From: Variovorax sp. N23
GTDB lineage: Bacteria; Pseudomonadota; Gammaproteobacteria; Burkholderiales; Burkholderiaceae_C
Direction of reading: 5' to 3'
Length of the DNA stretch: 64,000 nt
Assembly (NCBI RefSeq): GCF_025486315.1
Contig: NZ_JAOOPY010000010.1
Coordinates: 1 to 64,000, forward strand
Below are positions 7,152 to 27,950 of the stretch, in pieces. The translations under genes were made by a program, and so were the position numbers. Each line of letters opens with the position of its first letter. Position 1 is the first letter of the stretch. The notes under the pieces are model-generated. The model did no database searches. It was given only the letters and a program-made list of their open reading frames with translations, and was not told the DNA's origin.

Positions 7152-7744
7152 GGCGCACATCCATCGGGATGACTGGCGGAAAGCGTCTTATCGAGGTCGC
7201 ACATGCGAACTTGACCACCGAGCGCAACGGTGACGCGCAGCCGCCGCGTATCGGTGGAGTCGGGCACCGAGAGGTTGTAGTCGACCGCCGCATTGGCCGC
7301 GCAATCGGCGCCATCGATGCCGGGCGTCGCATTGGCGATCAGTCGCCCGAGCGAGCTGAAGCAGATCGACGCCGGCCCTGTGATCGACACGCCTGTGTTG
7401 GTCAGCACGCCCGACTGCACGAACGCGGCGACGTCCGTCGTTTCGCCGGTCAGCACCACCGTGTTGATGGACCAGTAGCGTCCGTTCGTGACCGCTGTCA
7501 GGCCCGTTTCCGGAGAGGCGCTGTTGGTCAGCGAGAACACCGTTTGCCGATTGCGGCGCAGCGCTTCGGCCTGTGCCAGGCGCAAGCCGTTCTGCAATGC
7601 CTCGGCGGTCGCGCGCAACTGGCTGTTCTTGATCCAGGTACTGAACGAGGGCGCAGCCAGCATGGCCAGAATGGCCAGCAGCGTGATGGTGACCATCAAT
7701 TCGATGAGGGTGAAACCCGCTGCGCGGGCACGTCGGCGGCTCAT
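7148..7744 (-). CDS. fimU: GspH/FimT-family minor pilin (FimU-like)
   Basis: 198 residues. Leader [10 protein letters not shown] then cleavage at [21 protein letters not shown] (+1 Phe, +5 Glu), followed by [20 protein letters not shown] and the GspH/FimT-type domain ([20 protein letters not shown]). The start at 7744 is preferred over the longer frame from 7780 because it yields a standard prepilin leader and overlaps the upstream pilE-like stop as ATGA. FimU/FimT pilins belong to the tip-priming complex with PilV/W/X and PilY1. Confidence 0.88.
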
Positions 7745-8208
7745 GATGCCGGGCAGGCCATGCCCTTCCTGGTCAGCCACGCGGTGTCACACAGCGTCCA
7801 ACCGGCGCCGGCCGAGGGCGTGGCCCGCGTGTCCTGCTGATTGATGGTGAACTTGAAATCGTTGGTCGGACCGCTTCCGACCGCCAGCGCTGTGAACGTG
7901 GTCGCCGTGAGCGTCGAGCACGTGATGGTGAAGGTGCCGGCGCGGATGGGTGTTCCGTCGGGCGGGCACGGGGTGGTGAAGCTCCCTTGCGTTGTGTACT
8001 GCCGGTTGTCCTGAAAATGCCGCTCCAGGTTGGCGCGCAATGTCGAAAGAGCGTTCTGGGCTTCCACGATCTGCCCGCGCAGCACGTAGTCGCGATAACT
8101 CGGCAGTGCGATCGCAGCCAGGATGCCGATGATCCCGACAACGATCATCACCTCGATCAACGTGAAACCTCGGGAAGCTCGCAGTCGGCGATGTACGGCT
8201 TTGGACAC
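7741..8208 (-). CDS. pilE: PilE-like type IV minor pilin, first gene of the operon
   Basis: 155 residues from a GTG start at 8208, chosen because AAAGG lies about 6 bases upstream; the longer alternative begins with TTG at 8247 without a good ribosome site. The leader [14 protein letters not shown] precedes cleavage site [21 protein letters not shown], then [20 protein letters not shown], the classical PilE N-terminal helix. Four cysteines in the C-terminal half (TPC, ITC, TLC, MAC) could form two disulfides. It opens the operon, whereas in Pseudomonas the pilE-like gene comes last. Given its place with fimU/pilV/W/X/Y1 it is more likely a minor pilin than the main pilus subunit, but a major pilin role is not excluded. 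Confidence 0.85.
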
Positions 8209-8240
8209 TGGATGACCTTTGTGGATTGCAATTGGCAATA

Positions 8241-8255
8241 GTGACAAATTGTCAC
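8241..8255. promoter_or_regulatory. 15-bp perfect palindrome upstream of the pilin operon
   Basis: GTGACAAATTGTCAC has 7-bp perfect arms around one central base, 33-47 bases upstream of the pilE GTG start and within the gap shared with the divergent pglL. Its position suits an operator for a dimeric regulator of the pilin operon. No clear sigma70 or sigma54 promoter was recognised next to it, so its role is inferred. Confidence 0.5.
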
Positions 8256-8356
8256 CAAAACAGGGACTCAGACGTTAACCGCTTGTCCGCCCGCTGCCGC
8301 CTTCCGTCCATGACGCGATGGAAAAAAGCAACTGATTCGGTCGGCACAATCGCCCC

Positions 8357-10063
8357 ATGCGTTCTCCCGCCACCCCGCTTGCCACCCCCTCGGCCGGCGC
8401 GCCGGGCTTCGTCCCTGCGGCCCTGATCGCCTTCCCCTTCCTCTCCCCCCTCGTCGCCGGCCCCTCCGCCAACGTCTGGCAACTGCTGGTCGCCTGGGCC
8501 TGCGCGACGGCGCTGTGGGCGCTCAGCCCGCGGGCGTTGCCGTCGCGGGGCGTGCTGGCGCTCCTGGCATTTCTGGCTGCGTCGATCGCGCTGCGTCGCG
8601 GGCACGATCTGTCGCAGAGCCTGGGCGCCTGCGTGGCGCTGGCGATGGCGGCCGTGGCCGCGTCGGTCGGGGCGGGGTGGGCGCGTGGGCGTGGCGGGCA
8701 TGATGGGCGTGACGAGGCGGCGGCGCCGCTGGCGCGCGGGCTCTTCGCCGCCGGCGTGCTCAGCGCCGTGCTCGGCCTGTGCCAGTACTACGGGGCGGCC
8801 GACTGGCTGGGCCCCTTCACCACCGCGCCCGACGTCGGGCAGGCCTACGGCAACCTGCGCCAGCGCAACCAGTTCGCCACGCTGATCTCGATGGCGCTGG
8901 TCGCGGCGCTGTGGCTGCATGCGGGCTTCGGCGTCGGCGGGCGCGCCCGGCTGGCATGGTGGGGCGGCGTGGGGCTGCTGACGCTGGCGGCCGCCGCGTC
9001 GACCTCGCGCACCGGGCTGCTGCAGTGGCTGGCGATCAGCGTGGCGGCGGCCGCGCTCGCGTGGGGGGAGCGTCGGGGCCGGGCGGCCGCGGCGCCGCGG
9101 CTGCCGCACCCGGTGGGGCTGCTGTCGCTGGTTCCGGCCTATTTCGTCGCGGCCAGCCTGCTGCCGAGGCTGGCCGGCCCGGCCGTCGAAGACATGCTGC
9201 GCCGCCTGCGCGAAGGCGCGCCCGACGGCCACAGCCGGCTGCTGCTGTGGCGCAACGTGCTCGACCTGGTCGCCGAGCGCCCCTGGGGTGGCTGGGGCTG
9301 GGGGGAGCTGAGCTTCGCGCATTTCAGTCATCTGTACGCCGGGCCGCGCTTCGTCGAGATCCTGGACAACGCCCACAACCTGCCGCTGCACCTGGCGGTG
9401 GAGCTGGGTGTGCCCGTGGCGGTGGCGGTCTGTGCCGGCTTCATGGCGCTGGTGCTGGGCGCCCGGCCCTGGCGCGAACGCGACCCCACGCGGCTGATGG
9501 CCTGGGGCGTGCTCGGCGCGATGGTGCTGCACAGCCTGCTCGAGTACCCGCTGTGGTACGGCCCCTTCCAGCTGGTGTTCGGCCTCTGCCTGGGGCTGCT
9601 GTGGCCGGCGACCTCGGCGGTCGACGTGGCGGCGCCCCGGCGCACCGGGCCGGTCGCGGTGCACGCCGTGACGGCGCTGCTGGTGGCCGTGGTGGCCTAC
9701 ACCGGCTGGGACTACCTGCGCATCAGCCAGATCTACGTGGCCCGCGCCGAGCGGCTGCCGCCCTGGCAGGAGCACACCCTGGAAAAGCTCCGCGCCTCCT
9801 GGCTGTTCGCCGGCCAGGTGCAGTTCGCCGAGCTGTCGCTCACGCCGGTGGTGCGCGCCAATGCGGCGGCGGTGAACACGCTGGCGCGGGGTGTCATGCA
9901 CTTCTCGCCGGAGCCGCGGGTGGTCGCCAAACTTGTCGAAAGCGCCACGCTGCTCGACCGCGACGACGAGGCGCTGGCCCTGGCGGCGCGCTTCAAGATC
10001 GCCTATCCCGTGGAATATGCCCGGTGGATCCTAGGGGAAGCACCCGACGCACCGGGAGATTGA
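8357..10063 (+). CDS. pglL: PglL/Wzy-family O-oligosaccharyltransferase, probable pilin glycosylase
   Basis: 568-residue polytopic inner-membrane protein with about a dozen hydrophobic segments. Motifs of the O-antigen ligase/PglL family are visible: GNLRQRNQFATLISMALV (about residues 165-185), STSRTGLLQWL (about 215), the periplasmic loop segment LLWRNVLDLVAERPWGGWG (about 295) and NAHNLPLHLAVELGVP (about 338), where the AHN histidine is the conserved functional residue. The C-terminal part is a soluble-like tail typical of PglL. These enzymes transfer lipid-linked glycans to Ser/Thr of pilins in the periplasm. It is divergent from a complete pilin operon and followed by two glycosyltransferases, which supports a pilin O-glycosylation role over O-antigen ligation; ligase function (WaaL) remains possible. 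No strong ribosome site is seen before the ATG. Confidence 0.8.
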   Translation: MRSPATPLATPSAGAPGFVPAALIAFPFLSPLVAGPSANVWQLLVAWACATALWALSPRALPSRGVLALLAFLAASIALRRGHDLSQSLGACVALAMAAVAASVGAGWARGRGGHDGRDEAAAPLARGLFAAGVLSAVLGLCQYYGAADWLGPFTTAPDVGQAYGNLRQRNQFATLISMALVAALWLHAGFGVGGRARLAWWGGVGLLTLAAAASTSRTGLLQWLAISVAAAALAWGERRGRAAAAPRLPHPVGLLSLVPAYFVAASLLPRLAGPAVEDMLRRLREGAPDGHSRLLLWRNVLDLVAERPWGGWGWGELSFAHFSHLYAGPRFVEILDNAHNLPLHLAVELGVPVAVAVCAGFMALVLGARPWRERDPTRLMAWGVLGAMVLHSLLEYPLWYGPFQLVFGLCLGLLWPATSAVDVAAPRRTGPVAVHAVTALLVAVVAYTGWDYLRISQIYVARAERLPPWQEHTLEKLRASWLFAGQVQFAELSLTPVVRANAAAVNTLARGVMHFSPEPRVVAKLVESATLLDRDDEALALAARFKIAYPVEYARWILGEAPDAPGD

Positions 10064-10124
10064 GCATCGCTAGTCACAATTTGGGTCAAAATGTAAACTT
10101 TCGACTGCCTATCGTTTGCCCCGA

Positions 10125-11321
10125 ATGAAGATCCTGAGCGTCATTTCCAGCATGGACCCGGTCAAGGGCGGGCTGTCGCAGGGCGTCCGCAACCTGGTGC
10201 CGGCGCTGGCGACGCTCGGCGTCCACAGCGAGGTATTGAGCTTCGACGCGCCCGACGCGGGCTTTCTCGGGCAGGACGACTTCCCCGTCCACGCCATCGG
10301 CCCGGCCAAGGGGCCCTACGCCTACTGCGCCGCGCTGCGGCCATGGCTGGAGGAAAACGTCTCGCGCTTCGACGCGGTCATCGCGCAGGGGCTCTGGCTG
10401 CACAACAACGCCGGCACCTGGCGCGTCTTGCGGCAGCTGCGGCGTGCGCAGTCGGCGGCCGGCCCGCGCTTCTACGTGATGCCGCACGGCATGCTCGACC
10501 CCTATTTCCAGAAAGCCCCCGAGCGTCGGTGGAAGGCGCTTCGCAACGTGCTGGCGTGGAAGCTGTTCGAAGGCGCCGCGGTCAACGGTGCCGACGGCGT
10601 GCTCTTCACCTGCGCGCAGGAACTGCTCCTGGCCCGCGAGCCCTTTTCGCCCTACCGGCCGCAGCGCGAGCTCGACGTCGGCTTCGGCATCCAGGCGCCG
10701 CCGCCGCTGACGCCCGCCATGGCGCCGGCCTTCGCGGCCCGCTGCCCCGGCCTGGCGGGCAAGCCCTACCTGCTCTTTCTCGGCCGCGTCCACGAGAAGA
10801 AGGGCACCGACCTGCTGCTGCGCGCCTACCTCGAGCTGTGCCGCGAGCGGCCCGACATGCCGGCGCTGGTGATCGCCGGCCCCGGCCTCGACAGCGACCA
10901 TGGCCGCAGCCTGCTCGCGCTGGCCGACGGCCACCCCGACGTGCATTTCCCCGGCATGCTGCGCGGCGACGAAAAGTGGGGCGCGCTCTACGGCTGCGAG
11001 GCCTTCGTGCTGCCGAGCCACCAGGAGAACTTCGGCATCGCGGTGGTCGAGGCGATGGCCTGCGGCAAGCCGGTGCTGATCAGCCCGCAGGTCAACATCT
11101 GGCGCGAATGCGCGCCGGGCGGCCTGGTCGACGAGGACACCGAGGTCGGCGTGAAGCGCCTGCTGACGCGCTGGTTCGCGCTGACGCCCGCCGAGCGCAC
11201 GGCGCGTGGCGTGGCCGCCTTCGCCGCCTACCGGCGCCACTTCGCCGCCAGCGAGGCGGCCCAGCGATTGCTCCGCGCCCTGCGCGCGGTGCAGAACGAA
11301 CCCATGGGTGCCGTCGCATGA
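10125..11321 (+). CDS. GT4-family glycosyltransferase
   Basis: 398 residues from ATG 10125 (MKILSVISSMDP); a TTG three codons upstream is the only other nearby start. The N-terminal Rossmann half begins with a typical GT-B pattern with PVKGGLSQGVRNLVPAL. The C-terminal half carries LFLGRVHEKKGTDLLLRAYL (about 220-240) and the nucleotide-sugar EX7E motif in ENFGIAVVEAMACGKPVLIS (about 305-325). GT4 enzymes are retaining transferases using nucleotide sugars at the cytosolic membrane face. It lies 61 bases after pglL and overlaps the next gene region as ATGA, so it probably builds the glycan that PglL transfers. The sugar specificity cannot be read from sequence. Confidence 0.85.
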   Translation: MKILSVISSMDPVKGGLSQGVRNLVPALATLGVHSEVLSFDAPDAGFLGQDDFPVHAIGPAKGPYAYCAALRPWLEENVSRFDAVIAQGLWLHNNAGTWRVLRQLRRAQSAAGPRFYVMPHGMLDPYFQKAPERRWKALRNVLAWKLFEGAAVNGADGVLFTCAQELLLAREPFSPYRPQRELDVGFGIQAPPPLTPAMAPAFAARCPGLAGKPYLLFLGRVHEKKGTDLLLRAYLELCRERPDMPALVIAGPGLDSDHGRSLLALADGHPDVHFPGMLRGDEKWGALYGCEAFVLPSHQENFGIAVVEAMACGKPVLISPQVNIWRECAPGGLVDEDTEVGVKRLLTRWFALTPAERTARGVAAFAAYRRHFAASEAAQRLLRALRAVQNEPMGAVA

Positions 11322-11345
11322 ACATCGTCCTATGAACATCGTCCT
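11318..11345 (+). repeat. 14-bp tandem duplication at a start codon
   Basis: ATGAACATCGTCCT occurs twice in tandem (11318-11331 and 11332-11345). Copy 1 overlaps the upstream stop as ATGA, and would encode only MNIVL before a TGA. That TGA overlaps the second ATG, which opens the real glycosyltransferase. The duplication thus shifted the start by 14 bases yet preserved a stop/start overlap. Confidence 0.95.
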
Positions 11346-12537
11346 TTTTGCGCACCCGACCTTCCTCGGCTCGGCCAGCATGCCGCGCTACACGCAGTGG
11401 CTGGCCGACGGCATGGCCGCGCGCGGCCACCGGGTGCGCATCTGGGCGCCGCAGCCGGGCTTCCATGCGCTGCCGGTGCCCGAGCGCCTGAAGAAGTGGA
11501 TGGGCTACCTCGACCAGTTCGCGGTGTTCCCGCGCTGGGTGCGCCGGCAGATGGCGGCCCTGCCGGCCGACACGCTGTATGTCTTCAGCGACCATTCGCT
11601 CGGGCCGTGGGTGCCGCTGGTGGCGGCGCGGCCGCACGTCATCCACTGCCACGACCTGCTGGCGCAGCATTCCGCCCTGGGCCGGGTGCCGCTGAACCGC
11701 CCGGGGTGGAGCGGCCGGCTGTACCAGCGCTACATCCGCCGGGGCTTCGCGCAGGGGCGGCGCTTCATCGCCATCTCGAAGAAGACCGAGCAGGACCTGC
11801 GCGGCTTCGTCGGGCCGGCACCGACCATCGAGGTGGTCTACAACGGCGTCAATCCGCAGTTCGTTCCGGCCAAGGACGTCACGGCCCAGCGTGCGGCGCT
11901 CGGGCGTCGGCTGGGCATCGACCTGTCGCGCGGCTTCCTGCTGCACGTCGGCGTGAACGTCTGGTACAAGAACCGCGCCGGGGTGCTCGCCATGGTCGAC
12001 CGCTGGCGCCGCAGCACGCCCGAAGGCCTGCCGCTGCTGATGGTCGGCCCGCCGCCGCCGGACGCGCTGGCCAGCCAGCGGCTGGCCATGCATGCGCCGA
12101 ACGAGGTGCACTTTCTGTCGAAGGTCGACGACGACGTGCTGATCGGGCTCTACGGCACCGCCACCGCGTTCCTGTTTCCGTCGATCGCCGAGGGCTTCGG
12201 CTGGCCCATCGCGGAAGCCATGGCCTCGGGCTGCCCCGTCATCACCACCGATGCCGCGCCGATGAACGAGGTCGGCGGCAGTGCCGCGTTCTATGTGCCG
12301 CCGGCCGATGCCAAGGCGCCCGCCGATGCGGCATGGGCGGCGGCCGCCGCCGGCGTGATCGCGAAGGTGCTGGCGCTGTCGCCGCTCGAACGGCAGCTCG
12401 CCATCGACCAGGGGCTGTCGCAGGTGCGCCGTTTCGATTCCGAAAGTGCGCTCGACCGCATCGAGGCCATCTACCGCCAGACGCTGGCCGCGAACGCCGC
12501 CGCGCAGCCGGCCGCGGCGCGTCAGTCGGCCACGTAG
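11332..12537 (+). CDS. GT4-family glycosyltransferase
   Basis: 401 residues beginning [23 protein letters not shown]. The N-terminal domain has the glycine/serine loop and [15 protein letters not shown]; the C-terminal domain has the UDP-sugar EX7E pattern in [20 protein letters not shown] (about 284-303) followed by [15 protein letters not shown]. Typical GT-B fold, retaining. Start set at 11332, where the ATG overlaps the stop of a 5-codon mini-frame made by a 14-bp duplication; the earlier open frame from 11206 is the shadow of the previous gene. Third gene of the pglL cluster, likely acting in the same glycan assembly. Its 3' end overlaps the convergent moaC by 16 bases. Confidence 0.85.
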
Positions 12538-13064: not shown

Positions 13065-14711
13065 ATGCCGCGCCCGACCGTCCGCCCCTGCGCCCAGAGC
13101 CGTCCTCTGCGCCGCCCCCTGCGCCGCACGCTGCGTGCGGCCGCCGTGGCCGTGCTGGTCGCGTCGCAGGTGCTGGTGCCGTTGGCCGCCCAGGCGCAGC
13201 TGCTGCCGGGCCTGGGCGACGGCGGCGAGATGACGGCGGCGGCCGAGCGCCGGCTGGGCGACCAGATCGCCCGCGAGCTCTACCGCGACCCCGACTACAT
13301 CGACGACCCGGTGCTGGTCGACTACGTGCAGGCCATCTGGCAGCCGCTGCTGGCCGCGGCGCGGGTGCGCGGCGAACTCACGCCCGAACTCGACGAGCGC
13401 TTCGCCTGGGCCGTGCTGCTGGGGCGCGACCGCAGCATCAACGCCTTCGCGCTGCCCGGCGGCTACCTCGGCGTGCACCTGGGGCTGATCGCCGTGACCG
13501 ACAGCCGCGACGAACTCGCCACCGTGCTGGGCCACGAGCTGTCGCACGTCACGCAGCGGCACATCGCCCGCATCATGGCCAAGCAGAGCCGCGACATGCC
13601 GCTGATGCTGGCGGCCCTGGTGCTGGGCGTGATCGCCGCCAGCAAGAGCCGCAACGGTGACGCGGGTCAGGCCATGATCATGGGCAGCCAGGCCATGGCC
13701 ATGCAGAACCAGCTCAACTTCTCGCGCGACATGGAGCGCGAGGCCGACCGTGTCGGCTTCGGCGTGATGACGCAGGCCGGCTTCGCGCCCCAGGGCGCGG
13801 CCTCGATGTTCGAGAAGCTGCAGTACGCCTCGCGCCTGAACGACAACGGCTCCTACCCCTACCTGCGCAGCCATCCGCTCAACAGCGAGCGCATCTCCGA
13901 CATGCAGGCGCGCTTCCAGTTCCGCGGCGACGGCGCCGCGCCCGAAGATGCGAGCGCCGGGCTGGGGCTCGCCGGCGCCGCGCGGCCGGCCGGCCCGCGC
14001 ACCGCGGCGGCACCCGCGCTGCGCATGGACCACGCCATCGTCGCCGCCCGCGCCCGCGTGCTGTCGCGCCCGGGTGTCGACGTGCTGCGCCTGTGGATCG
14101 ACGCCGCCTCGGGCACCGAGTTCGCGCGGCGTTCGCCGGCCCAGCAGGCCGGCATGCTCGCCGCCGCGGCGCTGGCGGCCAACGAGCTGCGCGACGGCCG
14201 CGCCGCCCGCGCGCTGTCCGATCGGCTCACCCCGCTCGCCGCGGCCGACCCCGCGTCGGCGCGCCTGGCGCGGCTGCTCAGCGCCGAGCTGTACCTCGCC
14301 GCGGGCGCCGCCCCGCAGGCGGCCGCGCTGCTCGATGTGCGCGCCGGCACGCGCGCCGAAATGCTGCTCGCGGCACAGGCGGCCGTCGCCATGCGCCAGG
14401 CGGGGCCGGCCGCTGCGCCCTTGCGCGACTGGGTGGCCACGCATCCGCGCGATGCCGGGGCGTGGCAGATGCTCGCCTCCGTCTATAGCGCGCAGAACGA
14501 CACCTTGCGCGCGGTACGCGCCTACGCCGAAGCGAACGTGGCTGTGCTCGACTACGCCGCGGCGCGCGACCGGTTCAAGGCCGCCCAGGATCTGGCGGCC
14601 CGGGGCACGGGCGGTACGGTCGATCACTACGAGGCCTCGATCATCGATACCCGGGCGCGCGCCGTCGAAGCCCTGCTGCGCGAGCAGCAGGCCGAACCAC
14701 CCTTGCGCTGA
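13065..14711 (+). CDS. Periplasmic M48 metalloprotease, BepA/YfgC-like
   Basis: 548 residues. A signal peptide follows the start ([24 protein letters not shown]). The zinc protease motif HELSH is at about residue 157 in [19 protein letters not shown], with the third ligand in [14 protein letters not shown] (about 222-230), and SHPLNSERI later. The C-terminal 230 residues are Ala-rich helical repeats like the TPR domain of BepA, which degrades or assists stalled outer-membrane proteins such as LptD. Start at 13065 (ATG with GGAG upstream); the frame is open much further upstream only as a shadow. Ends 118 bases before the lipopeptide synthetase, with no evidence that it serves that pathway. 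Confidence 0.88.
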
Positions 14712-14829: not shown

Positions 14830-17800
14830 ATGAACCATGATGCAGGCCTTGTGTCCCTGAATTCCCTGACCGCCGTCTTCGAGTCGCGCTGCGCCGAGCA
14901 CCCCGACCGTCTCGCCTACATCTTCCTGAAGGACGACCTCTCCCCTGGCGAGCAACTGAGCTACGGGGACCTGTCCATCGACAGCCATCGGCTGGCCGCG
15001 CGTCTGGCGGCGTTCGCGCGGCCCGGTGACCGCGTCCTGCTGGCGCTGCCGCCGGGGCTCGACTTCGTGCGCGCCTTCTGGGCCTGCATGCTCAGCGGCT
15101 GCGTGGCGGTGCCGGTGCCGGCGCCCGACCCGGTGCGGCTGCTGCGCTCGGCGCCGCGCCTGCGCGGCATCCTCGAGGACACCGGCGCCTCGCTGGTGTG
15201 GACCGCCGCCGACCTGCTCGACAGCGCGCGCCAGACGCTCGAGCCGTCGCTGTTCACCGCGGCGCGCTGGATCTCGACGGCCGAACTCGAGGCGGCCGAG
15301 CCTGCCGTGCCCGCCCAGCTGCCCTTCGTCGGCGCCGATGCGCTGGCCTACCTCCAGTACACCTCGGGCTCGACGCTGGCCCCGCGCGGTGTGCGCATCA
15401 GCCACGCGCAGGCGCTGGCCAACGTGCAGGCGCTCAACGCGGCCGGCCGGGTCGACGCCCAGACCCGCATGCTCACCTGGCTGCCGCACTTCCACGACTA
15501 CGGGCTGGTCTGCGGGCTGCTGGTGCCCTTCTATGCCGGGGCCACCGGCTGGCTGATGTCGCCGCTGACCTTCCTGCGCCGTCCGCTGCGCTGGCTCGAG
15601 GCGGTCGGTGCGCTGCGCATCACGCACACCGGCGCGCCGATGTCGGCCTACGTGGCGTGCCTGCGGGCGCTCGCCGACGCCCCGCTCGCGAGCGACCTCT
15701 CGTCGCTGGTGTCGCTCAGCTGCGGTGCCGAGCCGCTGCGTGCCGATGCGGTCGAGCGCGTGCTCGAGGTGTTCGGCGCCGCGGGCCTGCGCCCCGAGGC
15801 CTTCATGCCCGCCTACGGCATGGCCGAGACGGTGCTGGGCGTCACGCTGTCGGCCACCGACCGGCCGCCGCGCCTGCTGGCGCTCGACGCCCAGGCGCTC
15901 CGGCAGGACCGCGTCGTGCCCGCGCGGAGCGACGGCACGGGGGCGGTCCGCATCGTCGGCTGCGGCCAGCCACTCGCGCACACCACCCTGCGCATCGTCG
16001 ACCCGGCGACCGGCGCCGTGGCGGCGGCCGACGCGGTGGGCGAGATCTGGGTGCAGTCGCCCAGCGTCGGCCATGGCTACTGGCGCCAGCCCGAGCTGAC
16101 CGAGGCCGGCTTCGGCGCGCGCCTGGCCGATGTCGATGGCCCCTTCCTGCGCACCGGCGACCTCGGCTTCATGGCCGACGGCGAACTCTTCGTCACCGGC
16201 CGGCTCAAGGACCTGGTGATCGTGCACGGCGGCAACCACTACCCGCAGGACATCGAGTGGACGGCCGAGCATGCGCACCCGGCGCTGCGGCCGGGCTACG
16301 GTGCGGCCTTCTCGGTGGACACGCCCGACGGCGAGGCGCTGGTGCTGGCGCTCGAGACCGAACGCCGCACCCGTGACGACGACGCCCTCGCCGCAGCGGC
16401 CGCGGTGCGGCGCGCCGTCGGCGAGGCGCACGGCCTGCCGGTCGAGGCCGTGGTGCTGGTGCGCTCCGGCTCGCTGCCGCGCAGCTCCAGCGGCAAGATC
16501 CAGCGCCGCGCCATCCGCCAGCGCTACCTCGACGGTGCGCTCGACATCCAGGCCGCCGTCACGCGCGAGGCGCTGCCGCCGAGCGTCGACGAGGCCGCCG
16601 ACGGCGCCGCCGCGCCCTCCATGCACGAGATGCCGCGCGACGCCGCCGAGCAGACGATCTGGGACATCTGGCGCGAGGTGCTCGACACCACCGCCTTCGG
16701 TGTGCACGAGAACTTCTTCGAGCTGGGCGGTACCTCGCTGCTGATGACGCAGGTGGCGTCGCGGGTGAGCCAGCAGCTCGGGCTCGACCTGCCGCTCGGC
16801 GCGCTGTTCGACCACACCAGCGTCGCGGCGCTGGCCGACCATGTCACGCGGCTGCTGGCCGAGCGCGGCGGCGTGGCGCCGGCCGTGCCTGCGGCCATTG
16901 CGCGCGTGCCGCGCGGCGTGCCGCTGCCGGTGTCGCTGTCGCAGCGGCGCATGTGGATCATCCAGCAGTTCGACCCGGCCTCCACCGCCTACAACGTCGC
17001 GGTCTCGCTGCGCATCCGCGGCGCGCTCGACGTGGCGCTGCTGCAGCGCGCGTTCGACCACATGGCCGAGCGCCACGAGAGCCTGCGCACCCGCCTCGTG
17101 CTCGACGGTGCCGAGCCTATGCAGGTCATCGAGCCCTCGGCGCCGGCGCCGATCGAGCAGATCGACCTCGCCGATCGGCCCGACCGCCTGGCGCAGGCGC
17201 GCACGCTGCTGGCCGAGCGGCTGGACACGCCCTTCGCGCTCGACCGCGCCCCGCTGCACCGCGCCACGGTGCTGCGCCTGGGCGCCAACGACCAGGTGCT
17301 GCTCTGGGTGATGCACCATGCCATCGCCGACAACTGGTCCTTCGCGGTGCTGATGCGCGAGGCCCTGGCCGCCTACGCCGCCTGGCAGGCCGGGCGCGAG
17401 CCCGAACTCGACCCCATCCCGGTCGCGTATGCCGACTACGCCGCCTGGCAGCGCAGCCCGTCGTCGGTGGCGCAGCGCCGGCCGCAGATGGACTACTGGC
17501 GCTGGCGGCTGGCCCACCTGACGCCGCTCGACCTGCCGACCGATTTTCCGCGGCCGCTGCGCCCGAGCTTCCGCGGTGCGCGTGTTTCCGCCACGCTGCC
17601 GGTCGGCCTGCGCGCGGCCCTGCGGGCCTACGGTGCGCGCGCATCGGTCACGCCCTTCGTCGTGCTGCTGGCGGCCTTCAAGCTGATGCTCACGCGCCAG
17701 GCGCGCAGCACCGACATCGCCGTGGGCACGCCGGTCGCCAACCGCCACCGCTTCGCGGCCGAGCACCTGGTCGGCACGCTGGTCAACACGCTGGTGATGC

Positions 17801-20052
17801 GCACCGACCTCGGCGGCGATCCGAGCTTCGACACGCTGGTGCAGCGCGTGCGCGCCACCGCGGTCGAAGCCTATGCCCACCAGGAAGCGCCCTTCGACGA
17901 ACTGGTCGAGTCGCTCGGCCATGACCGCGCGGCGCACCCCGAAGGGCTGGTGCGCGTGCTCTTCAACGTGCTGAACGCACCGCTCGGCCGGCTCGACCAT
18001 GCCGGCCTGGAGGTGGAGGAATTCCCGTTCGACCGTGCCACCGCGCAGTTCGACCTGTCGGTGCACATCGACACCGAGTTCACCCACCGCGTGCACTTCG
18101 AGTACTCCACCGACCTGTATGCGCCTGGCACGGTCGAGCGCATGCTCGAGAACTACCTCGCGCTGATCGAGCGGCTGCTCGCCACGCCCTCGCTGCCGCT
18201 GTCGCAGGTGCCGACCGTCGCGCCGTCGCAGCAGGCCTTCCTGCGCGACGGCTGGAACGCCACGCGGCGCCCGTTGCCCGCGGCGCAGACGGTGCACCGC
18301 TACCTGCTCGGCGCGCGCCCGGTGGGCGACGATGCCGTGGCGCTGGTCGACGCGCAGGGCGCCACCCTGTCGTTCGGCGAACTCGAAGCCCGCGCCAACG
18401 CACTCGCACGCACGCTGCGCGCCCGCGGCATCGGCCGGGGCCAGCGCGTGGGCCTGGGCGTCGCACGCGATGCCGGCCTGCTGGTGGCGCTGCTGGGCGT
18501 GCTCAAGTCGGGCGCGGCCTACGTGCCGCTCGACCCGGGCTTTCCGGAAGAGCGCCTGCGCTTCATGGCCGAAGACGCCGGCCTGTCGGCGCTCGTCACG
18601 CGCGGCGTGCCGGCGGGCTGGCTCGCCGCGGCCGGCGTGCCGGTGCTGGCGCTCGACATGGACGGGCCCGTCGCGCCGGGGCAGGGCGAAGCGCTCGCGC
18701 CCGATGCGTCGCAGGACGCCGGCCCGCTCGACGCGGCCTACATGATCTACACCTCCGGCTCCACCGGCCTTCCCAAGGGCGTGGCGGTGCCGCACCGGGC
18801 GGTGGTCAACTTCCTCGCCAGCATGGCGCACACGCCGGGGCTGGCCGCGGACGATCGGCTGGTGGCGGTCACCACGCTGTCCTTCGACATCGCCGTGCTC
18901 GAACTGCTGCTGCCGCTGGCCGTCGGCGCACGCGTCGTGCTGGCCGATGCCGCGCAGGTGCACGACCCGCACGCGCTGCGCGACCTGATCGCACGCGAGC
19001 GCGCCACCGTCATGCAGGCCACGCCGACGCTCTGGCGCATGCTGCTCGACGCCGGCTGGCAGCGGCCCGACGGGGTGCCGCATTTCAAGGCGCTGATCGG
19101 CGGCGAGGCGCTGCCGGCCGCGCTGGCCGAGCGGCTGCTCGAGCGCGGCGTCGAGCTCTGGAACATGTACGGGCCGACCGAGACCACCGTGTGGTCGAGC
19201 GTGTGGCGCGTCAGCGCGCCGCGCGACGGCATCTCCATCGGCCGGCCCATCGACAACACCGACATCCAGGTGCGCGACGCCGACGGCCAGCTGTGCCCGA
19301 TCGGCGTGCCCGGCGAGCTGTGCATCGGCGGGGTCGGTGTCACGCTGGGTTACCACCAGCGCGACGAACTCACCGCCGACCGCTTTCCGCCCGACCTCGA
19401 CAGCGACGAGCCCGGCGCGCGCTTCTACCGCACCGGCGACCTGGGCCGCTGGCGGCACGACGGCTGGCTGGAGCACCTGGGCCGGCTCGACCGACAGGTG
19501 AAGCTGCGCGGCCTGCGCATCGAGCTGGGCGAGATCGAGGCCGCGCTGCGCGACCACCCGTCGGTGGCCGAAGCCGTTGTCGCGACGCACGCGCAGAGCG
19601 AGGACGACGTGCGGCTGGTGGCCTACGTCGTTCCGCGCGGCGAAGCGCCCGACACGTCATTGCTGCGCGACCACCTGCGCACGCGTCTGCCCGAGTACAT
19701 GCTGCCGCAGCACGTCGTGGTGCTGGACGCGCTGCCGCTGCTGCCCAACGGCAAGATCGACCGCAACGCCCTGCCGGCGCCGCATGTGGAGGTGCGCGCG
19801 GCCACCCGCGTCAGCCGTGTGGCACCCAGCACGTCGGCCGAGCGCGCCATCGCCGAGGTCTGGTGCGAACTGCTGGGCATCCACACGGTCGACCTGCGCG
19901 ACAACTTCTTCGACCTGGGCGGCCATTCGCTGCTCGCGATGCGCGCCGTGATGGCCATCCGCGAGCGCTTCGGCTGGGAGATCCAGCCGCCGCGCTTCGT
20001 CTACGAGACGCTCGGGCAGCTGGCCCGCGAAGAGAACCTCAGCGCTTCGTGA
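14830..20052 (+). CDS. Single-gene lipopeptide synthetase: FAAL-ACP-C-A(Gly)-PCP
   Basis: 1740 residues, five domains. Residues 1-577: fatty acyl-AMP ligase, with [29 protein letters not shown] and [13 protein letters not shown]. About 590-675: acyl carrier, Ser near 636 in [12 protein letters not shown]. About 690-1130: condensation domain, [14 protein letters not shown] and active site HHAIADNWS near 828 (the usual HHxxxDG has Asn for Gly). About 1150-1640: adenylation domain with [29 protein letters not shown] and LLPNGKIDR. By-eye specificity residues are D-I-L-Q-L-G-M-V-W-K, nearly the known glycine code DILQLGLIWK. About 1670-1740: peptidyl carrier, Ser near 1700 in [13 protein letters not shown]. 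There is no thioesterase, reductase or epimerase domain, and no phosphopantetheinyl transferase in this window. Predicted to load a fatty acid and join it to one amino acid, giving an N-acyl-glycyl thioester; release is unexplained. Start 14830 chosen at [13 protein letters not shown] with GGAG about 11 bases upstream. Confidence 0.92.
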
Positions 20053-20389
20053 AGCCGCCCAGCGCGGCTTCGATGAGCAGGCGCAGCAGCGAATAGATCA
20101 GCGAGCCGATCAGCGCGGCGACGAAGCCCCGCACGACGAAGCCGCCGAGCAGGCCCGATGCGGCCCAGAACATCAGCGCGTTGATGACGAAGAGGAAGAG
20201 GCCGAAGGTGACGATGGTGACCGGCAGCGTCAGCACCACCAGCACCGGCCGCACGATCATGTTGAGCAGGCCGATCACCGCGGCCGCGATCAGCGCCGAG
20301 GTGAAGCTGCTCACCTGCACGCCGCTGTAGAGGTAGGTGACGGCGAGCAGTGCCGCCGCGCTGAGGAGCCATCGTAGGAGGAGTTGCAT
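20039..20389 (-). CDS. Phage-holin-4-superfamily (PF04020-type) small membrane protein
   Basis: 116 residues, four hydrophobic segments. It starts MQLLLRWLLSAAALLAVTYL and contains the family signature GLLNMIVRPVLVVLTLPVTIVTFGLFLFVINALMF (positions about 42-76), then a last helix LIGSLIYSLLRLLIEA. Members are common small inner-membrane proteins annotated as phage holin family but are housekeeping genes of unknown role rather than lysis proteins. There is GGAGGAG ahead of the ATG. Its stop overlaps the 3' end of the convergent synthetase by 14 bases. Confidence 0.85.
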   Translation of the reverse strand: MQLLLRWLLSAAALLAVTYLYSGVQVSSFTSALIAAAVIGLLNMIVRPVLVVLTLPVTIVTFGLFLFVINALMFWAASGLLGGFVVRGFVAALIGSLIYSLLRLLIEAALGGFTKR

Positions 20390-20472: not shown

Positions 20473-20937
20473 TTATTCGGCCAGCTCGTTCGCCAGCACC
20501 AGCAGCGCGCCCAGGCCCATCGTCGCGCCGGGCAGTGCCCAGCCGCTGTGGCCGGCCGGCTTCTGGTCGGGCGACACGGGCTCCATGTCGACGCCGAGCT
20601 TCGGGCGGCGCGCATCGATGACGCGCGCGGCACCGTGCTCGTGCTTCAGGCGCTGCGTGAGATCGGTCAGCGAGCCCTGCGCCAGCACCGGCGTGATCGT
20701 GTCGCCCGAGCGCTGCAGCAGCGGCAGCATCTGGTCCTGCGTCTTCGCGAACCACTTGCCGCGCCAGTTCTCGCGGGCGCTGTGGCTGACCCACTTGCTG
20801 ATGCGGTGCGTCATGCGCGGGGCGCAGGCCACCAGCACCCAGTGCTTGGCGCCGGCGCTCACGGTGCCGGCCGGCGCCTTGGCGAGGAATTCGCGGGCGT
20901 AGGCCGCGTCGTCGACGTACAGGATGATCTTTTCCAC
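20473..20937 (-). CDS. Conserved hypothetical protein next to terC
   Basis: 154 residues, no signal peptide. The N-terminus (MEKIILYVDDAAYAREFLAK) and the central HWVLVACAPRMTHRISKWV suggest an alternating beta/alpha fold resembling a nucleotide- or USP-like domain, with SARENWRGKWFAKTQDQMLPLL after it. The C-terminal part is rich in Gly/Ala (GWALPGATMGLGALLVLANE), possibly one hydrophobic segment. I do not recognise a characterised family. It follows terC by 48 bases on the same strand and ends at a strong terminator, so it probably shares the riboswitch-controlled transcript. Confidence 0.7.
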   Translation of the reverse strand: MEKIILYVDDAAYAREFLAKAPAGTVSAGAKHWVLVACAPRMTHRISKWVSHSARENWRGKWFAKTQDQMLPLLQRSGDTITPVLAQGSLTDLTQRLKHEHGAARVIDARRPKLGVDMEPVSPDQKPAGHSGWALPGATMGLGALLVLANELAE

Positions 20938-20985
20938 GATGCGCTCCTTCAGGTAGTGAGAGTGGCAGAGACTTCGGTCGCGAGA

Positions 20986-21723
20986 TCAGACGGTGGCTGT
21001 ATCGTGCGCCCTCGGACGGCGCGAAGCAACCCACTTGCCGATGGCCAGCACCAGCAGGGCGCCGGCGATGCCGGCGGCGTACTTGACGGTGTCGGTCTGC
21101 GGAATCTTCGGCACCCAGGTCCAGGCGGCGGTGTTCGACACGGCCGGGTCGGAGATCAGCATCGTGCCGGCGATCCAGCCCAGCAGCATGCCGCCCAGCG
21201 TAATGATCAGCGGGAAGCGGTCCATCAGCTTGATGACCAGCTGGCTGCCCCACACGATGATCGGGATGCTCACCAGCAGACCGAAGATCACCAGCGGCAT
21301 CTGGTGGTCGCCGCCGGCACCCTGTGCGGCACCGGCAATGGCGATCACGTTGTCCACGCTCATCACCAGGTCGGCCACGATCACGGTCTTGACGGCGGCC
21401 CACAGCTTGTCGCTGCCGGCGATGTTGCCGTGCGCGTCGTCATGCTCGGGCGCCAGCAGCTTCACGCCGATCCACAGCAGCAGCAGTGCGCCGACGATCT
21501 TCAGGAACGGAATGGCCAGCAGCGTGAGCGCGAAGAAGATCAGGACGACGCGCAGGACGATGGCGCCGGCGGTTCCCCACAGGATGCCCTTGGTGCGTTG
21601 GGCGGGCGGCAGCTTGCGGCAGGCCAGCGCGATGACGACGGCGTTGTCGCCGCCCAGGAGAATGTCGATCATGATGATCTGACCGACCGCGACCCAGAAT
21701 TCCGGGGTCAAAAAAGCTTCCAT
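20986..21723 (-). CDS. TerC/Alx-family membrane transporter, probable manganese exporter
   Basis: 245 residues with about seven membrane helices. The two acidic TerC signatures are present: IDILLGGDNAVVIALA (about residues 19-35) and DLVMSVDNVIAIAGAA (about 120-135), whose paired Asp residues are thought to bind metal. A His/Asp-rich loop (APEHDDAHGN) lies between. TerC-family proteins such as Alx and YkoY export Mn(II) or help metallate exported proteins. The 5' leader contains a yybP-ykoY Mn(II) riboswitch and its promoter, which strongly favours manganese export here over tellurite resistance. No other ter genes are present. Confidence 0.9.
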   Translation of the reverse strand: MEAFLTPEFWVAVGQIIMIDILLGGDNAVVIALACRKLPPAQRTKGILWGTAGAIVLRVVLIFFALTLLAIPFLKIVGALLLLWIGVKLLAPEHDDAHGNIAGSDKLWAAVKTVIVADLVMSVDNVIAIAGAAQGAGGDHQMPLVIFGLLVSIPIIVWGSQLVIKLMDRFPLIITLGGMLLGWIAGTMLISDPAVSNTAAWTWVPKIPQTDTVKYAAGIAGALLVLAIGKWVASRRPRAHDTATV

Positions 21724-21811
21724 GGCGTCCTCTGTGCATTTCGATAAGGGCCGAGCGGATCGGATCGAAGCGACTGAATGAAAAGACCAGAGTCAACGGG
21801 CCGCGCAAACG

Positions 21812-21843
21812 CTTCGATCGAACCTGCCAGGTTCAAATCGAAG
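21812..21843 (-). promoter_or_regulatory. Possible riboswitch expression-platform hairpin
   Basis: CTTCGATCGAACC pairs imperfectly with GGTTCAAATCGAAG around the 5-base loop TGCCA (plus-strand reading). On the transcript its upstream arm includes the CTTCGAT that ends the aptamer, so folding of this hairpin and of the aptamer 3' side would compete. No U-run follows directly, so classical termination is unclear. Confidence 0.5.
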
Positions 21844-21960
21844 GTCTTGCTCGGCAACGCACATGGCGATGCCCGACAGGCCGGAAGTGTTGTGCTTCGT
21901 ATTGACGACCTGGCGATACCCGTGGCGTGGACCGCGGGCGGGAGCTACTCCCCTTCGTGC
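21838..21960 (-). ncRNA. yybP-ykoY manganese riboswitch
   Basis: On the minus strand the leader begins ACGAAGGGGAGTAGC, the conserved 5' motif of yybP-ykoY, continues with CCAGGTCGTCAATACGAAG, GGCCTGTCGGGCATCGCC, and closes with GTTGCCGAGCAAGACCTTC. These match the conserved blocks of the proteobacterial class that senses Mn(II). The aptamer ends about 115 bases before the terC start codon. Ligand binding normally turns on exporter expression. Boundaries are approximate; recognition is from the consensus, not from a covariance search. Confidence 0.85.
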
Positions 21961-21964
21961 GCGG

Positions 21965-21994
21965 ATTAGAGCATCCGGTGCGCGAGGCTGGCAA
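21965..21994 (-). promoter_or_regulatory. Sigma70-type promoter of the riboswitch-terC transcript
   Basis: On the minus strand TTGCCA (21994-21989) and TCTAAT (21970-21965) are separated by 18 bases; each differs from consensus at one base. Transcription would begin near 21958, immediately at the 5' edge of the riboswitch aptamer, which makes the pair more convincing than either box alone. Confidence 0.65.
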
Positions 21995-22141
21995 CCGGGC
22001 CTGCCAAGGGCTTGAGAAGAAGCGTCCTGAAAGCGGCGCAGCCAAAGGCGAGAATGCTCCTGAATGCATAGCGACGCATAACCTTGGAGGAGCCCGGGAC
22101 TTTGCCGCACTATGATGCCGCTCCGCAGTTTTTACCGACCC

Positions 22142-22594
22142 ATGGCCGCCATACACATCACCGACATCGAGGCCGCCATCAACCACTGGCGCGAGAAGGC
22201 GCCCTCGCCCGACGGCATCACGCTGGGGCCCGAATTGCGCGCGCTGGCGGAGGTCTACGCGCTCATGGTGTTCCACCACGAAGACGAGGTCGACGAGGTC
22301 GGCTTCCCCGCCAAGGCGTGGGCCGCGTGGATGGCCTGGTACGAGACCACCATCGACACGCCCTGCATCGCCATCTGCTCGACCAGCCAGGGCGACGACG
22401 AGTGCAAGGGATGTGGCCGCAGCTTCGACGAGGTGCAGCACTGGCCCGCCATGACGCCCGCCGAGAAGCGCCAGACCTGGCGCCGCATCACGATGGAAGA
22501 CCGCGCCTGGCGCTTCAACACCTACGCCGAGCGGGCGCGCGAGGCGCAGCCGCCCACACCGCCGGCCACCGGCGACGACAGCACGCCGGACTGA
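22142..22594 (+). CDS. Small protein fusing DUF3717 and DUF1289
   Basis: 150 residues from ATG 22142 (MAAIHITDIEAAINHWREK), the usual beginning of DUF3717; an upstream in-frame ATG at 22112 would add ten residues, and neither has a clear ribosome site. Residues 1-75 are the DUF3717 module. Residues about 78-125 form DUF1289, a short cysteine domain: PCIAICSTSQGDDECKGCG has four Cys (C-x3-C, C-x2-C), then SFDEVQHWPAMTPAEKRQTW. DUF1289 proteins are thought to bind metal or Fe-S but have no settled role. The tail is Pro/Thr-rich. It is divergent from the terC riboswitch transcript and six bases from the next gene. Confidence 0.82.
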   Translation: MAAIHITDIEAAINHWREKAPSPDGITLGPELRALAEVYALMVFHHEDEVDEVGFPAKAWAAWMAWYETTIDTPCIAICSTSQGDDECKGCGRSFDEVQHWPAMTPAEKRQTWRRITMEDRAWRFNTYAERAREAQPPTPPATGDDSTPD

Positions 22595-22600
22595 GGCCGG

Positions 22601-22906
22601 ATGCGCCGACTCGCCCAGGCCCCCAACCTCGCGATCGCCACGCTCTGGGTGCATGCGCTGCGCGAGGACGGCATCGCGGCCTCGGTGCAGCGTGAGTTTC
22701 TCGGTGCGGCCGCCGGCCAGCTGCCGCCGGACCAGTGCCTGCCCGAGATCTGGATCGAAGACGACGCGCAGTTCACGCAGGCGCAGGCCGCGCTGCGCGA
22801 ACTGCAGCACCGTCCGCAGCGCCGCTGGCATTGCCGCTGCGGCGAGCTGGTCGAGGGCGGCTTCGAGCAGTGCTGGCAGTGCGGCGCGATGATGCCCGCT
22901 GCCTGA
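22601..22906 (+). CDS. DUF2007-type protein with C-terminal zinc ribbon
   Basis: 101 residues. The N-terminal 70 residues (NLAIATLWVHALREDGIAAS, then LPEIWIEDDAQFTQAQAALREL) match DUF2007, a ferredoxin-like fold annotated as putative signal-transducing protein. The last 25 residues add CRC and CWQC pairs (HCRCGELVEGGFEQCWQCG), a likely zinc ribbon. It begins 6 bases after the DUF3717/DUF1289 gene, so the two are probably cotranscribed. Function unknown; protein or nucleic-acid binding by the ribbon is a guess. Confidence 0.78.
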   Translation: MRRLAQAPNLAIATLWVHALREDGIAASVQREFLGAAAGQLPPDQCLPEIWIEDDAQFTQAQAALRELQHRPQRRWHCRCGELVEGGFEQCWQCGAMMPAA

Positions 22907-22915
22907 GCCGTCGAC

Positions 22916-23475
22916 TTACTTGAGCCGTTGAAGCTCGATGTCGATGCTGTGCTTGCCGTCGCCCAGCATCAGCGCGTTTTCCTGGATCGTCGCCTGCAGC
23001 TGCATGCTGCGCTGCGCCAGGGCGGCGACCGCTTGCGAGGTCTCGCTCGGGATGCGCCACACCGCGAGGTTCTGCAGGCGCGTGAGCTTGGTCTCGATGC
23101 CTTTCCACCAGATGCCCGCGGCGTGGCTGAAGCAGTACAGCAGCACCTCGTCGGCCTTGCCGCAGGCCTTCTGAAGCGGCTTCTCTTCCGGCTGGCCGAC
23201 CTCGATCCAGACGCGCGTGCGGCCGGTGAAGTCGCGCAGCGACACGTCGGGGTCGTCCGGGTTCGACAACCCCGCGCCGAAGCCCAGCACGCCGTCGCCG
23301 CCGCACACGCTCTGCAGCTTGTAGGCGTTCAGCGCCAGCGCGATGAGCCGCACCATCATCCGCTCGTCGTTCTCGCTCGGATGCCGAGCCAGCGTGAGCG
23401 CGTGGTCGGCGTAGTAGTTGTGGTCGATGTCGGCGACCGCGAGGTTCGCCTTGAAGATGGTGGATTTGAGGGCCA

Positions 23476-23476
<1 letters not shown>
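22916..23476 (-). CDS. yaeQ: YaeQ family protein
   Basis: 186 residues starting MALKSTIFKANLAVADIDHN, the standard YaeQ beginning, followed by LTLARHPSENDERMMVRLIALAL and WIEVGQPEEKPLQKAC. YaeQ has a PD-(D/E)XK nuclease-like fold; in E. coli it was linked to suppression of rfaH haemolysin defects but has no proven biochemical role. The start overlaps the purB stop (TGATG), so it is translationally coupled downstream of purB. It is convergent with the DUF2007 gene. Confidence 0.93.
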
Positions 23477-25956
<2,480 letters not shown>

Positions 25957-25960
<4 letters not shown>

Positions 25961-27126
25961 ATCCCGATGTCCAGGCCGAACAGGTCGGCGGCCATGTCGC
26001 CCGCGGCGCTCGGGTCTTCCTCGACCGCCGTGCGGCTCAGTTCGTCGAGCGGGGTGCGCGTCTCCAGCGTGACCGCTTCGAGCTGGGCGCGCCGCGTGCC
26101 GATCACGGCAAAGGGCCAGTACAGGCCGAGCGTGAGGAAGATCAGCAGGTAGTTCTTCAACTGCAGGCCGAGGTAGGGGCCGAGCTTCAGGCGACTGTCG
26201 AAACGCAGCACCTCGTTGCCCGTGGTCGACCACAGCAGGTTCTGCAGCCGCACCTGCAGGTACGACTTGGGCAGGATGTTCAGAAGCAGCACGCTGGCCA
26301 GGCCGATCACCGCCATCAGGATGATGAGGGCGACACCCAGACCGCTGCCCTTGCGCCCGATCACGCCGATGGCGCCGAACAGGCCGAACACCAGCCCGGC
26401 CAGCACCACCGCCGCGATGAGCAGGCCGATCAGCTTGATGAAGACGCCGTAGACCACGCCCACGTCGGCCTCGAGCCGCGTCTGCAGCCCGCCGTAGGCA
26501 TAGTGCCCGTGCTGGTAGCGCCGCAGCTTCCAGAGGAAGAAGGGCAGGCCGACGACAAAGACCAGCATGCACAGGCCGATCAGCCCGGCGGCGGCGGCCG
26601 ACGGCGCGCCGGGCTTGCCGCCCTCGCCGCTGGCAACCGTGAGGCCGGCCACGGCGAAGGGCAGCAGCACCAGGGCGAGCGGCGGCAGCAGAGCGCCGTA
26701 GGCCCCGGCCGTGTCGCCGGTGAAGCGAAAGCGCAGCCCGCGCCAGCTGGTGTTCGCCAGCCGGAAGCGCATCGACGCCCGGAACAGCGCCGGCCAGAGC
26801 CCGATGAAGGCCAGGGCCGCGAGCAGCGCGGCCCAGCCGGAGAAATGGCTGCCGACCGAATAGACGATCAGGAAGGCCGCGGCGATCAGCGTGCCGCGCA
26901 GCATCTTCGCCGGCTCGCCATGGAAGCCGAGCGCGTCGCCGTCGACCCAGGTGTTGGCGTGGAAGTACCGCAGTTTCCGCACCTTGGCCCAGGGCAGGTA
27001 AAGCCCCAGGGTGACGACGATGAGCAGCAGGTTCACGATCCAGATACGGAAGTATTCGCTGCCGCTGGCGGTGAAACCGATCGGATGGCGTTCGGGGCGC
27101 TGCCCCGCGGGCGTGTCGATGTCCAT
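25957..27126 (-). CDS. YjgN/DUF898 family membrane protein
   Basis: 389 residues with multiple hydrophobic segments. Start at 27126 (MDIDTPAGQRPERHPIGFTA) with GGAGG upstream; the frame to 27231 is not supported. The repeated family pattern is seen twice: FRIWIVNLLLIVVTLGLYLPWAKVRKLRYFHANTWVDG (positions about 26-63) and LKNYLLIFLTLGLYWPFAVIGTRR (about 325). A Gly/Ala-rich central region carries the other helices. Function unknown; translationally coupled to an M48 protease by a GTGA overlap, which suggests a membrane-quality role. Confidence 0.88.
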
Positions 27127-27270
27127 GGTCCTGAGTCCTCCCTCGTTGGTGATGCGCCACGATTCTGCATGCCAGGGACGGCTGCGCATCGGGGCGTCCG
27201 GCGCCCGCCCGGGGTCGCACACTAGAATCAAAGCGCTAAAACGATGACACAGAGGGAAGAGAGAAGCCGA

Positions 27271-27882
27271 ATGAAACTGATTGGATCCAACGCCAGCCCG
27301 TACGTGCGCAAGGTCCGCGTCGTCATGGCCGAAAAGCGCCTCGACTATCAGTTCGTCCAGGAAGACGTCTGGGCGCCCGACACCACCATTGCCAGCTCGA
27401 ACCCGCTGGGCAAGGTGCCCTGCCTGGTGATGGAAGGCGGCGAGGCGATGTTCGACTCGCGCGTGATCGTCGAATACCTCGACACCCTGTCACCGGTGGG
27501 CAAGCTCATTCCGCAGCAGGGCCGCGAGCGCGCCGAGGTCAAGACCTGGGAAGCCCTGGCCGACGGCGTGATGGACGCCGGTGTGCTGTGCCGCCTCGAA
27601 GCCACCTGGGCCGGCCGCGCCGACGGCGAACGCAGCCAGGCCTGGATGGACCGCCAGCGCGCCAAGATGGCGGGCGGCATCGCCGCCATGGCCAAGGGCC
27701 TGGGCGACAAGCCCTTCTGCAGCGGCATCCACCTGAGCCTGTCGGACATCGCGGTCGGCTGCGCGCTCGGCTGGATCGAGTTCCGCTTCCCGGACATCGA
27801 CTGGCGCAGCCAGTACGGCAACCTGGCCAAGCTGCAGGACAAGCTGATGTTGCGCCCCAGCTTCGCCGACACCAAGCCTTGA
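27271..27882 (+). CDS. Glutathione S-transferase family protein
   Basis: 203 residues. The thioredoxin-fold N-terminal domain starts MKLIGSNASPYVRKVRVVM with the substrate-site Ser, then NPLGKVPCLVMEGG (the conserved cis-Pro) and DSRVIVEYLD (glutathione-binding Ser). The C-terminal helical domain carries LSLSDIAVGCALGW, the structural N-capping motif. Start chosen at 27271 rather than the upstream ATG 27244 because it begins the fold directly. Substrate unknown. Ends at a bidirectional terminator shared with the convergent oxidoreductase gene. Confidence 0.9.
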   Translation: MKLIGSNASPYVRKVRVVMAEKRLDYQFVQEDVWAPDTTIASSNPLGKVPCLVMEGGEAMFDSRVIVEYLDTLSPVGKLIPQQGRERAEVKTWEALADGVMDAGVLCRLEATWAGRADGERSQAWMDRQRAKMAGGIAAMAKGLGDKPFCSGIHLSLSDIAVGCALGWIEFRFPDIDWRSQYGNLAKLQDKLMLRPSFADTKP

Positions 27883-27909
27883 AGAAGCCGCCGCCGCAAG
27901 GCTGAAACG

Positions 27910-27935
27910 AAAAAAGCGCCGCGAGGCGCTTTTTT
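27910..27935. terminator. Bidirectional rho-independent terminator
   Basis: AAAAAAGCGCC and GGCGCTTTTTT form a perfect 11-bp stem with a GCGA loop between the convergent GST and oxidoreductase genes. The A and T tracts make it functional for transcripts from either side. Confidence 0.9.
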
Positions 27936-27950
27936 CATGGGCGAACGGGT

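Follow-up and report, generated by a model that had tools for sequence, protein, structure and literature searches.

How does a nonribosomal peptide synthetase (NRPS) that ends on a carrier domain, with no release domain of its own and no partner gene found beside it, part with its product? The question is raised by one gene in the DNA analyzed here, positions 1 to 64,000 of contig NZ_JAOOPY010000010.1 of Variovorax sp. N23 (64,000 nt; hereafter, the window), which encodes a protein of 1740 amino acids with a fatty acyl-AMP ligase (FAAL), an acyl carrier protein (ACP), a condensation (C) domain, an adenylation (A) domain and a peptidyl carrier protein (PCP), in that order. We propose that this protein is a self-contained lipoamino-acid synthetase whose acyl-glycine is removed in trans by an enzyme shared with another pathway, a reading to which we assign a probability of roughly 0.55. 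The parts are ordinary, in an unusual minimal form that is conserved and occurs at several genomic sites.

Domain organization and predicted specificity

The open reading frame runs uninterrupted from an ATG at 14830 to a stop codon ending at 20052; an in-frame TTG upstream, at 14746, would as an alternative start add 28 residues. At a cut-off of E<=0.001, Pfam places two AMP-binding, two PP-binding, one Condensation and one AMP-binding_C match on the protein, together with PF23024 (DIP2-like AMP domain), located where the first ligase ends, and no further family. A frame of such length with seven ordered domain matches is no chance reading. The features of the gene are the following:

14830..20052, plus strand: whole synthetase gene, 1740 amino acids, FAAL-ACP-C-A(predicted Gly)-PCP (open reading frame and Pfam)
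14860..16554, plus strand: fatty acyl-AMP ligase region, residues 11-575 (alignment with FAAL structures)
16657..16845, plus strand: acyl carrier domain, residues 610-672, serine site GGTSL (PF00550)
16927..18243, plus strand: condensation domain, residues 700-1138, HHAIADN (PF00668, 319.9 bits)
18331..19356, plus strand: adenylation domain, large subdomain (PF00501)
19531..19755, plus strand: adenylation domain, C-terminal subdomain (PF13193)
19795..20049, plus strand: terminal peptidyl carrier domain, GGHSL, and protein end (second PF00550 stretch; borders by eye)

The first ligase is called a FAAL from its full-length alignment with known structures (7r7f, 412.6 bits over residues 25-573; 3kxw, 345.7 bits over residues 11-575; FadD32 and others) together with PF23024, the FAAL-specific insertion not having been scored separately; the NCBIfam fatty acyl-AMP ligase models match the protein at 354-432 bits, every one below its curated cut-off. 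Mapping the GrsA pocket positions, in what we take to be the accepted scheme, onto the A domain yields the code DILQLGMVWK, with D-I-L-Q-L-G-M-V-W falling between 18886 and 19194 and the equivalent of Lys517 at residue 1642. These are the same ten letters that the original prediction had read by eye. A text search of the open-licence PMC literature did not find this exact word; the glycine code DILQLGMIWK, given in PMC12283262, differs from it at one position. Judged by its code, the pocket is of the glycine type, as had been predicted.

In the same Pfam scan, the protein has no thioesterase, no reductase, no second condensation domain and no hidden domain at the C-terminus. The chain ends 39 residues after the GGHSL of the last carrier, a length equal in most copies, and therefore leaves no room for such a domain. 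Thus, the domain order originally predicted for this one gene is borne out by Pfam and the FAAL structure alignment, and the lack of a built-in release domain by Pfam.

Conservation and genomic sites of the synthetase family

We found 22 full-length copies of the synthetase (57-100% identity) in 101 Variovorax genomes, along with two that are cut, one at a contig end (G036) and one by a run of Ns (G136). The best 80 of 248 matches also contain four Xenophilus-type copies (two Xenophilus aerolatus records and two copies from metagenome-assembled genomes, MAGs), and beyond the family thus delimited identity drops, within those 80, from 56% to about 40%; a partial Xenophilus copy (L118) gave no usable frame. 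In an alignment of 23 copies, which leaves out G111, G136, G142, G143 and G150, the HHxxxDN and GGHSL motifs are present in all 23 and the A10 lysine motif is conserved throughout, while the ACP site GG[TNS]SL and the FAAL motifs are kept in all 22 copies that reach that region. Besides that of the window, 22 distinct family A domains were read, and each has either DILQLGMVWK or DPLQLGIVWK as its code. For the closer pairs, the ratio of nonsynonymous to synonymous substitution rates (dN/dS) of the window gene is 0.22 against G022, 0.36 against G001 and 0.33 against L061, values that argue for purifying selection. An apparent porin fusion in G136 (L190) was rejected, the stretch of Ns inside the frame being an assembly gap; an in-frame TAG in G129 is most likely the normal stop, since in L060 the frame on this contig stays open as far as ...QIAREDNL. 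Among the titles and abstracts listed from the open-licence PMC literature, no paper on the family was recognized.

Placement of the 24 genus copies, window included, shows that two sites predominate and that there are at least five more. Six copies lie at the site seen in the window (moaC and an M48 peptidase gene upstream, a holin or TerC gene downstream; window, G001, G036, G116, G143 and G142), as do all four Xenophilus-type copies, and 11 adjoin a class V aminotransferase, methylpurine glycosylase or VOC protein (G150 by one marker only). The G046 copy has a diverged VOC gene as its sole marker, five copies are at other places (G022, G043, G039, G049 and G111), and G136 is unplaced. Of the 30 best Variovorax M48 loci, only the window's own and that of G001 hold the synthetase; the other 28 are empty, with M48 directly against the holin gene and 13-67 bases between the aligned ends. 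The nearest copy, in G022 (87% identical), lies elsewhere, and the M48 site of that genome is empty. From these varied surroundings, the empty M48 sites and the case of G022 it follows that the gene behaves as a one-gene unit.

Gene clustering around 23 loci shows that, up to a distance of five genes, no neighbor family is present at more than 10 loci, and hence no local release partner was found. The class V aminotransferase, the methylpurine glycosylase and the VOC-type protein were rejected as partners, as they follow the site and not the gene. A conserved partner gene, which the original prediction had raised as a finding that would speak against it, does not occur beside the synthetase across its sites. 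The accompanying description of the gene as an orphan holds only in part: the gene is not alone but a member of a Variovorax/Xenophilus family, and it belongs to a wider group of release-less, Gly-ending synthetases of Variovorax.

Proposed synthesis and release of an acyl-glycine

In the proposed mechanism, the FAAL would activate a free fatty acid as the acyl-AMP and load it onto the adjacent ACP, the A domain would place glycine on the terminal PCP, and the C domain would condense the two to N-acylglycyl-S-PCP. Given the domains and the code, we consider it quite probable that this intermediate forms; a phosphopantetheinyl transferase is present in the same genome. The chain would then be removed in trans as N-acylglycine, most likely the product on the predicted specificity, or as one of its simple amides or esters. 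That some enzyme carries out this release in trans is, in our judgment, rather likely. The first candidate would be a pair of hydrolases, one TIGR03101-like and one TIGR03100-like with a Gly-x-Cys elbow, encoded beside an NRPS/polyketide synthase (PKS) on contig C42 of the same genome; the assignment of the release step to this particular pair is tentative and on balance doubtful.

The pair drew attention through NRPSs (here, pair-linked) that contain Gly modules, have a carrier as their last domain and lie upstream of two alpha/beta-hydrolase genes, of which the first resembles TIGR03101 and the second (hydr1) TIGR03100, both below the model cut-offs. Both hydrolases occur in 16 fetched loci besides the genome studied here, and in two Luteimonas loci (L078 and L080) the first is fused to the NRPS end. 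All 25 hydr1 sequences, eight of them from synthetase-carrying genomes, have the Gly-x-Cys elbow and a C-terminal His, and hydr1 is matched in all 22 tested genomes with a full-length synthetase (12 + 10). Within the 64,000-nt window the pair has no match, so that it is not directly downstream of the synthetase; its place on C42 is at about 20607-22407, with a phosphopantetheinyl transferase and the NRPS/PKS nearby. Among the titles and abstracts listed from the open-licence PMC literature, we recognized no paper describing this pair as an NRPS release system; a TIGR03100-type protein occurs in a Burkholderia exopolysaccharide cluster, according to PMC3584217.

The C42 locus as a whole (about 20607-35916; L051, L132) comprises a two-protein NRPS/PKS without a thioesterase, together with the phosphopantetheinyl transferase and the hydrolase pair. 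Its two proteins read A-PCP-ketosynthase-acyltransferase-PCP-aminotransferase (partly by eye) and C-A-PCP-C-PCP.

Related Gly-ending modules

Two trees place the window's terminal module among its relatives. Eight loci were left out of the trees and of the tail count given below as duplicates (L052, L054, L057, L059, L062, L063, L072 and L107; L057 is a second record of strain E41), and the first tree also omits five short modules. The Gly-ending modules of the genus form one group (support 85 and 88, unstarred), which is joined by the last module of L065, from a gammaproteobacterial MAG, with starred support of 98 and 95. The window's terminal module falls with the pair-linked Gly modules in a branch that is starred in the second tree (96) and unstarred in the first (91); the starred branch also takes in one Verrucomicrobiota module, whose order relative to the genus and pair-linked groups is unsettled in that tree.

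The same last-module lineage is found under other front ends, namely in dimodular C-A-PCP-C-A(Gly)-PCP synthetases (L047-L050) and in tailed types (L133-L140). The dimodular last module is nested inside the FAAL family (99, starred, in the first tree; 96, starred, in the second), and the tailed proteins have a Gln-type or ligase front, the Gln reading following codes that we assume to be the usual ones. In the three other release-less Variovorax synthetases scanned (L047, L135 and L138), Pfam finds no release domain. That all these synthetases, whether lipo-Gly, dimodular or tailed, represent one Gly-module lineage off-loaded in trans by a single hydrolase pair, one member of which would have a cysteine nucleophile, kept next to an NRPS/PKS that nearly all of the genus would carry, is an extension that we regard as improbable.

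Two observations on these relatives may be added. When L047-L050 are compared with L042 and the rest of the family, the front end appears to have been swapped whole and the Gly-ending module retained. L138 and L139, by eye, hold a one-module ligase-PCP-C-A(Gly)-PCP gene with a tail, beside an acetolactate-synthase-like gene.

Evidence against shared release in trans, and alternative explanations

Several observations weigh against the reading that an enzyme shared with another pathway releases the chain. The hydrolase pair is matched in 57 of 61 genus genomes, including 44 of the 48 that lack the synthetase gene. All 12 full-length carriers among the 61 match it, as does the incomplete G036 via a fragment, and so do all of another 10 carriers tested, six of them genus genomes that do not belong to the 61; with the pair near-universal in the genus, its co-occurrence with the synthetase does not discriminate. 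A basic amphipathic C-terminal tail is present in 12 of 14 pair-linked NRPSs versus 0 of 22 family copies (elsewhere, 7 of 8 tailed Variovorax forms, 0 of 4 dimodular ones and 1 of 22 others), by a rule that was chosen after the tails had been seen and that leaves out proteins with more than 110 residues past the last carrier motif, which drops L078 and L080. PF00975 has five matches in the synthetase's own genome, the best at 28.4 bits against a cut-off of 26.4 and three over it by at most 2 bits; it also matches in 10 of 14 control genomes, and we read the own-genome matches as general alpha/beta-hydrolases, one of which could serve as a type II thioesterase. The nearest single module outside the genus group, that of L065, has a built-in thioesterase (PF00975, 69.4 bits), and a thioesterase may therefore have been lost on the way to the synthetase family. 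The Gly modules of the pair-linked loci L074 and L123 fall outside the group in the trees, whose sequences were fetched by similarity to the query. Finally, dN/dS is 0.63 and 0.55 in two distant pairs, values that we judge less reliable at the given base composition.

As to the tails themselves, sequences such as KGWFKRLFQRA are seen in L073, L074, L082, L086-L088, L091, L094, L100-L102, L121 and L051, and in L133-L140; release-less NRPSs with such tails are mostly those that have the hydrolase pair next to them.

Of the explanations that compete with shared release in trans, the one that survives best, though we hold it unlikely, dispenses with a dedicated release enzyme: a small amine or water would take the chain, or the chain would close to an oxazolone (azlactone) and then be hydrolyzed. 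N-acylglycyl thioesters close easily to oxazolones, and among 23 copies there is neither a release domain nor a constant neighbor, as this explanation would have it; however, a slow uncatalyzed step would stall the line. The amine route is favored by the C domain of OaaC, which transfers ACP-bound fatty acids to free amines (PMC13142362), but domains of that type are free-standing and operate without an A or PCP partner.

Less credible again is that the synthetase is an inactive relic, the first module of a larger lipopeptide line whose downstream genes have been lost. In its favor, the nearest outside relative, in L065, closes a line of three modules that carries a thioesterase, distant relatives stand at the start of larger clusters, and dN/dS is 0.55-0.63 in distant pairs; against it speak intact frames, motifs preserved in 23 of 23 copies spread over several sites, and the dN/dS of 0.22-0.36 in close pairs.

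We consider it very unlikely that the acyl-glycine is passed in trans to another assembly line, as might be suggested by some more distant FAAL-initiated NRPSs of Variovorax (about 39-41% identical; L141 is one), which are part of larger NRPS clusters and have a longer C-terminal stretch. Past its last carrier, the window protein offers no extension that could act as a docking region, and condensation-domain matches in its own genome are confined to the window synthetase and C42 (4 matches). Since the only other C domains thus belong to a line with its own start, no downstream NRPS acceptor is available, and hand-over to C42 was judged unlikely on both grounds.

Cleavage of the bound glycine to a fatty acid amide by a monooxygenase in trans, which the DILQLGMIWK code of MOX-type Gly-activating domains (one position off; PMC12283262) might bring to mind, is in our judgment highly improbable: Pfam finds no such domain in the protein, none was noted beside the gene, and the code is common to ordinary Gly modules.

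Relation to known systems

The closest parallels in organization are the FAAL-initiated lipopeptide synthetases of Acidovorax and Variovorax that make acidobactin and vacidobactin, in which a FAAL likewise loads a carrier with a fatty acid and C-A-PCP chemistry follows (PMC4598715; review PMC11837247); compared with those lines, the window system is one module in one gene, with no other modules or tailoring genes and no thioesterase. The pair-linked Gly-ending NRPSs of Marinobacter, Aquabacterium, Luteimonas and Pseudoxanthomonas (L073, L078, L080, L082, L086-L088, L091, L094 and L100; in Caldimonas L102 and L121 and in MAG L101 the Gly module is internal) likewise lack a classical terminal thioesterase and have a Gly module that may be related to its own, but they are multimodular, have the hydrolases next to them and in most cases carry a basic tail, none of which applies to the window gene. 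The release-less Variovorax synthetases L047-L050 and L133-L140 share its Gly-module lineage under other front ends, with the basic tail in L133-L140. The OaaC fatty acid amide pathway of gut bacteria (PMC13142362) joins a carrier-bound fatty acid to an amine via a C domain with no classical release domain; OaaC uses a free-standing C domain and free amines, whereas the window protein would have its glycine on a PCP in the same chain.

The window gene encodes about the smallest lipopeptide line that can be drawn, and its occurrence as one gene at varied sites makes off-loading without a release domain testable with one protein. If release by the pair in trans is true, many NRPSs that are at present annotated as incomplete would gain a release route, and if the pair serves all of the release-less synthetases, the pair would be a common off-loading station for several separate genes. 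N-acylglycine, if made, would be a candidate membrane-active or signaling lipid of common root-associated bacteria.

Neighboring genes in the window

The synthetase gene is flanked by two genes that we place outside the pathway:

13065..14711, plus strand: M48 peptidase gene, upstream flank (PF01435)
20039..20389, minus strand: Phage_holin_4_2 gene, downstream flank, overlapping the synthetase gene tail to tail (PF04020)

Further neighbors are a 154-residue protein without a Pfam family and TerC, and the surroundings are non-biosynthetic, as had been described originally. Farther upstream, before moaC and the M48 gene, the translations read by eye at 7741-12537 indicate a type IV pilin-like gene, an oligosaccharyltransferase/ligase-like membrane protein and two glycosyltransferase-like genes.

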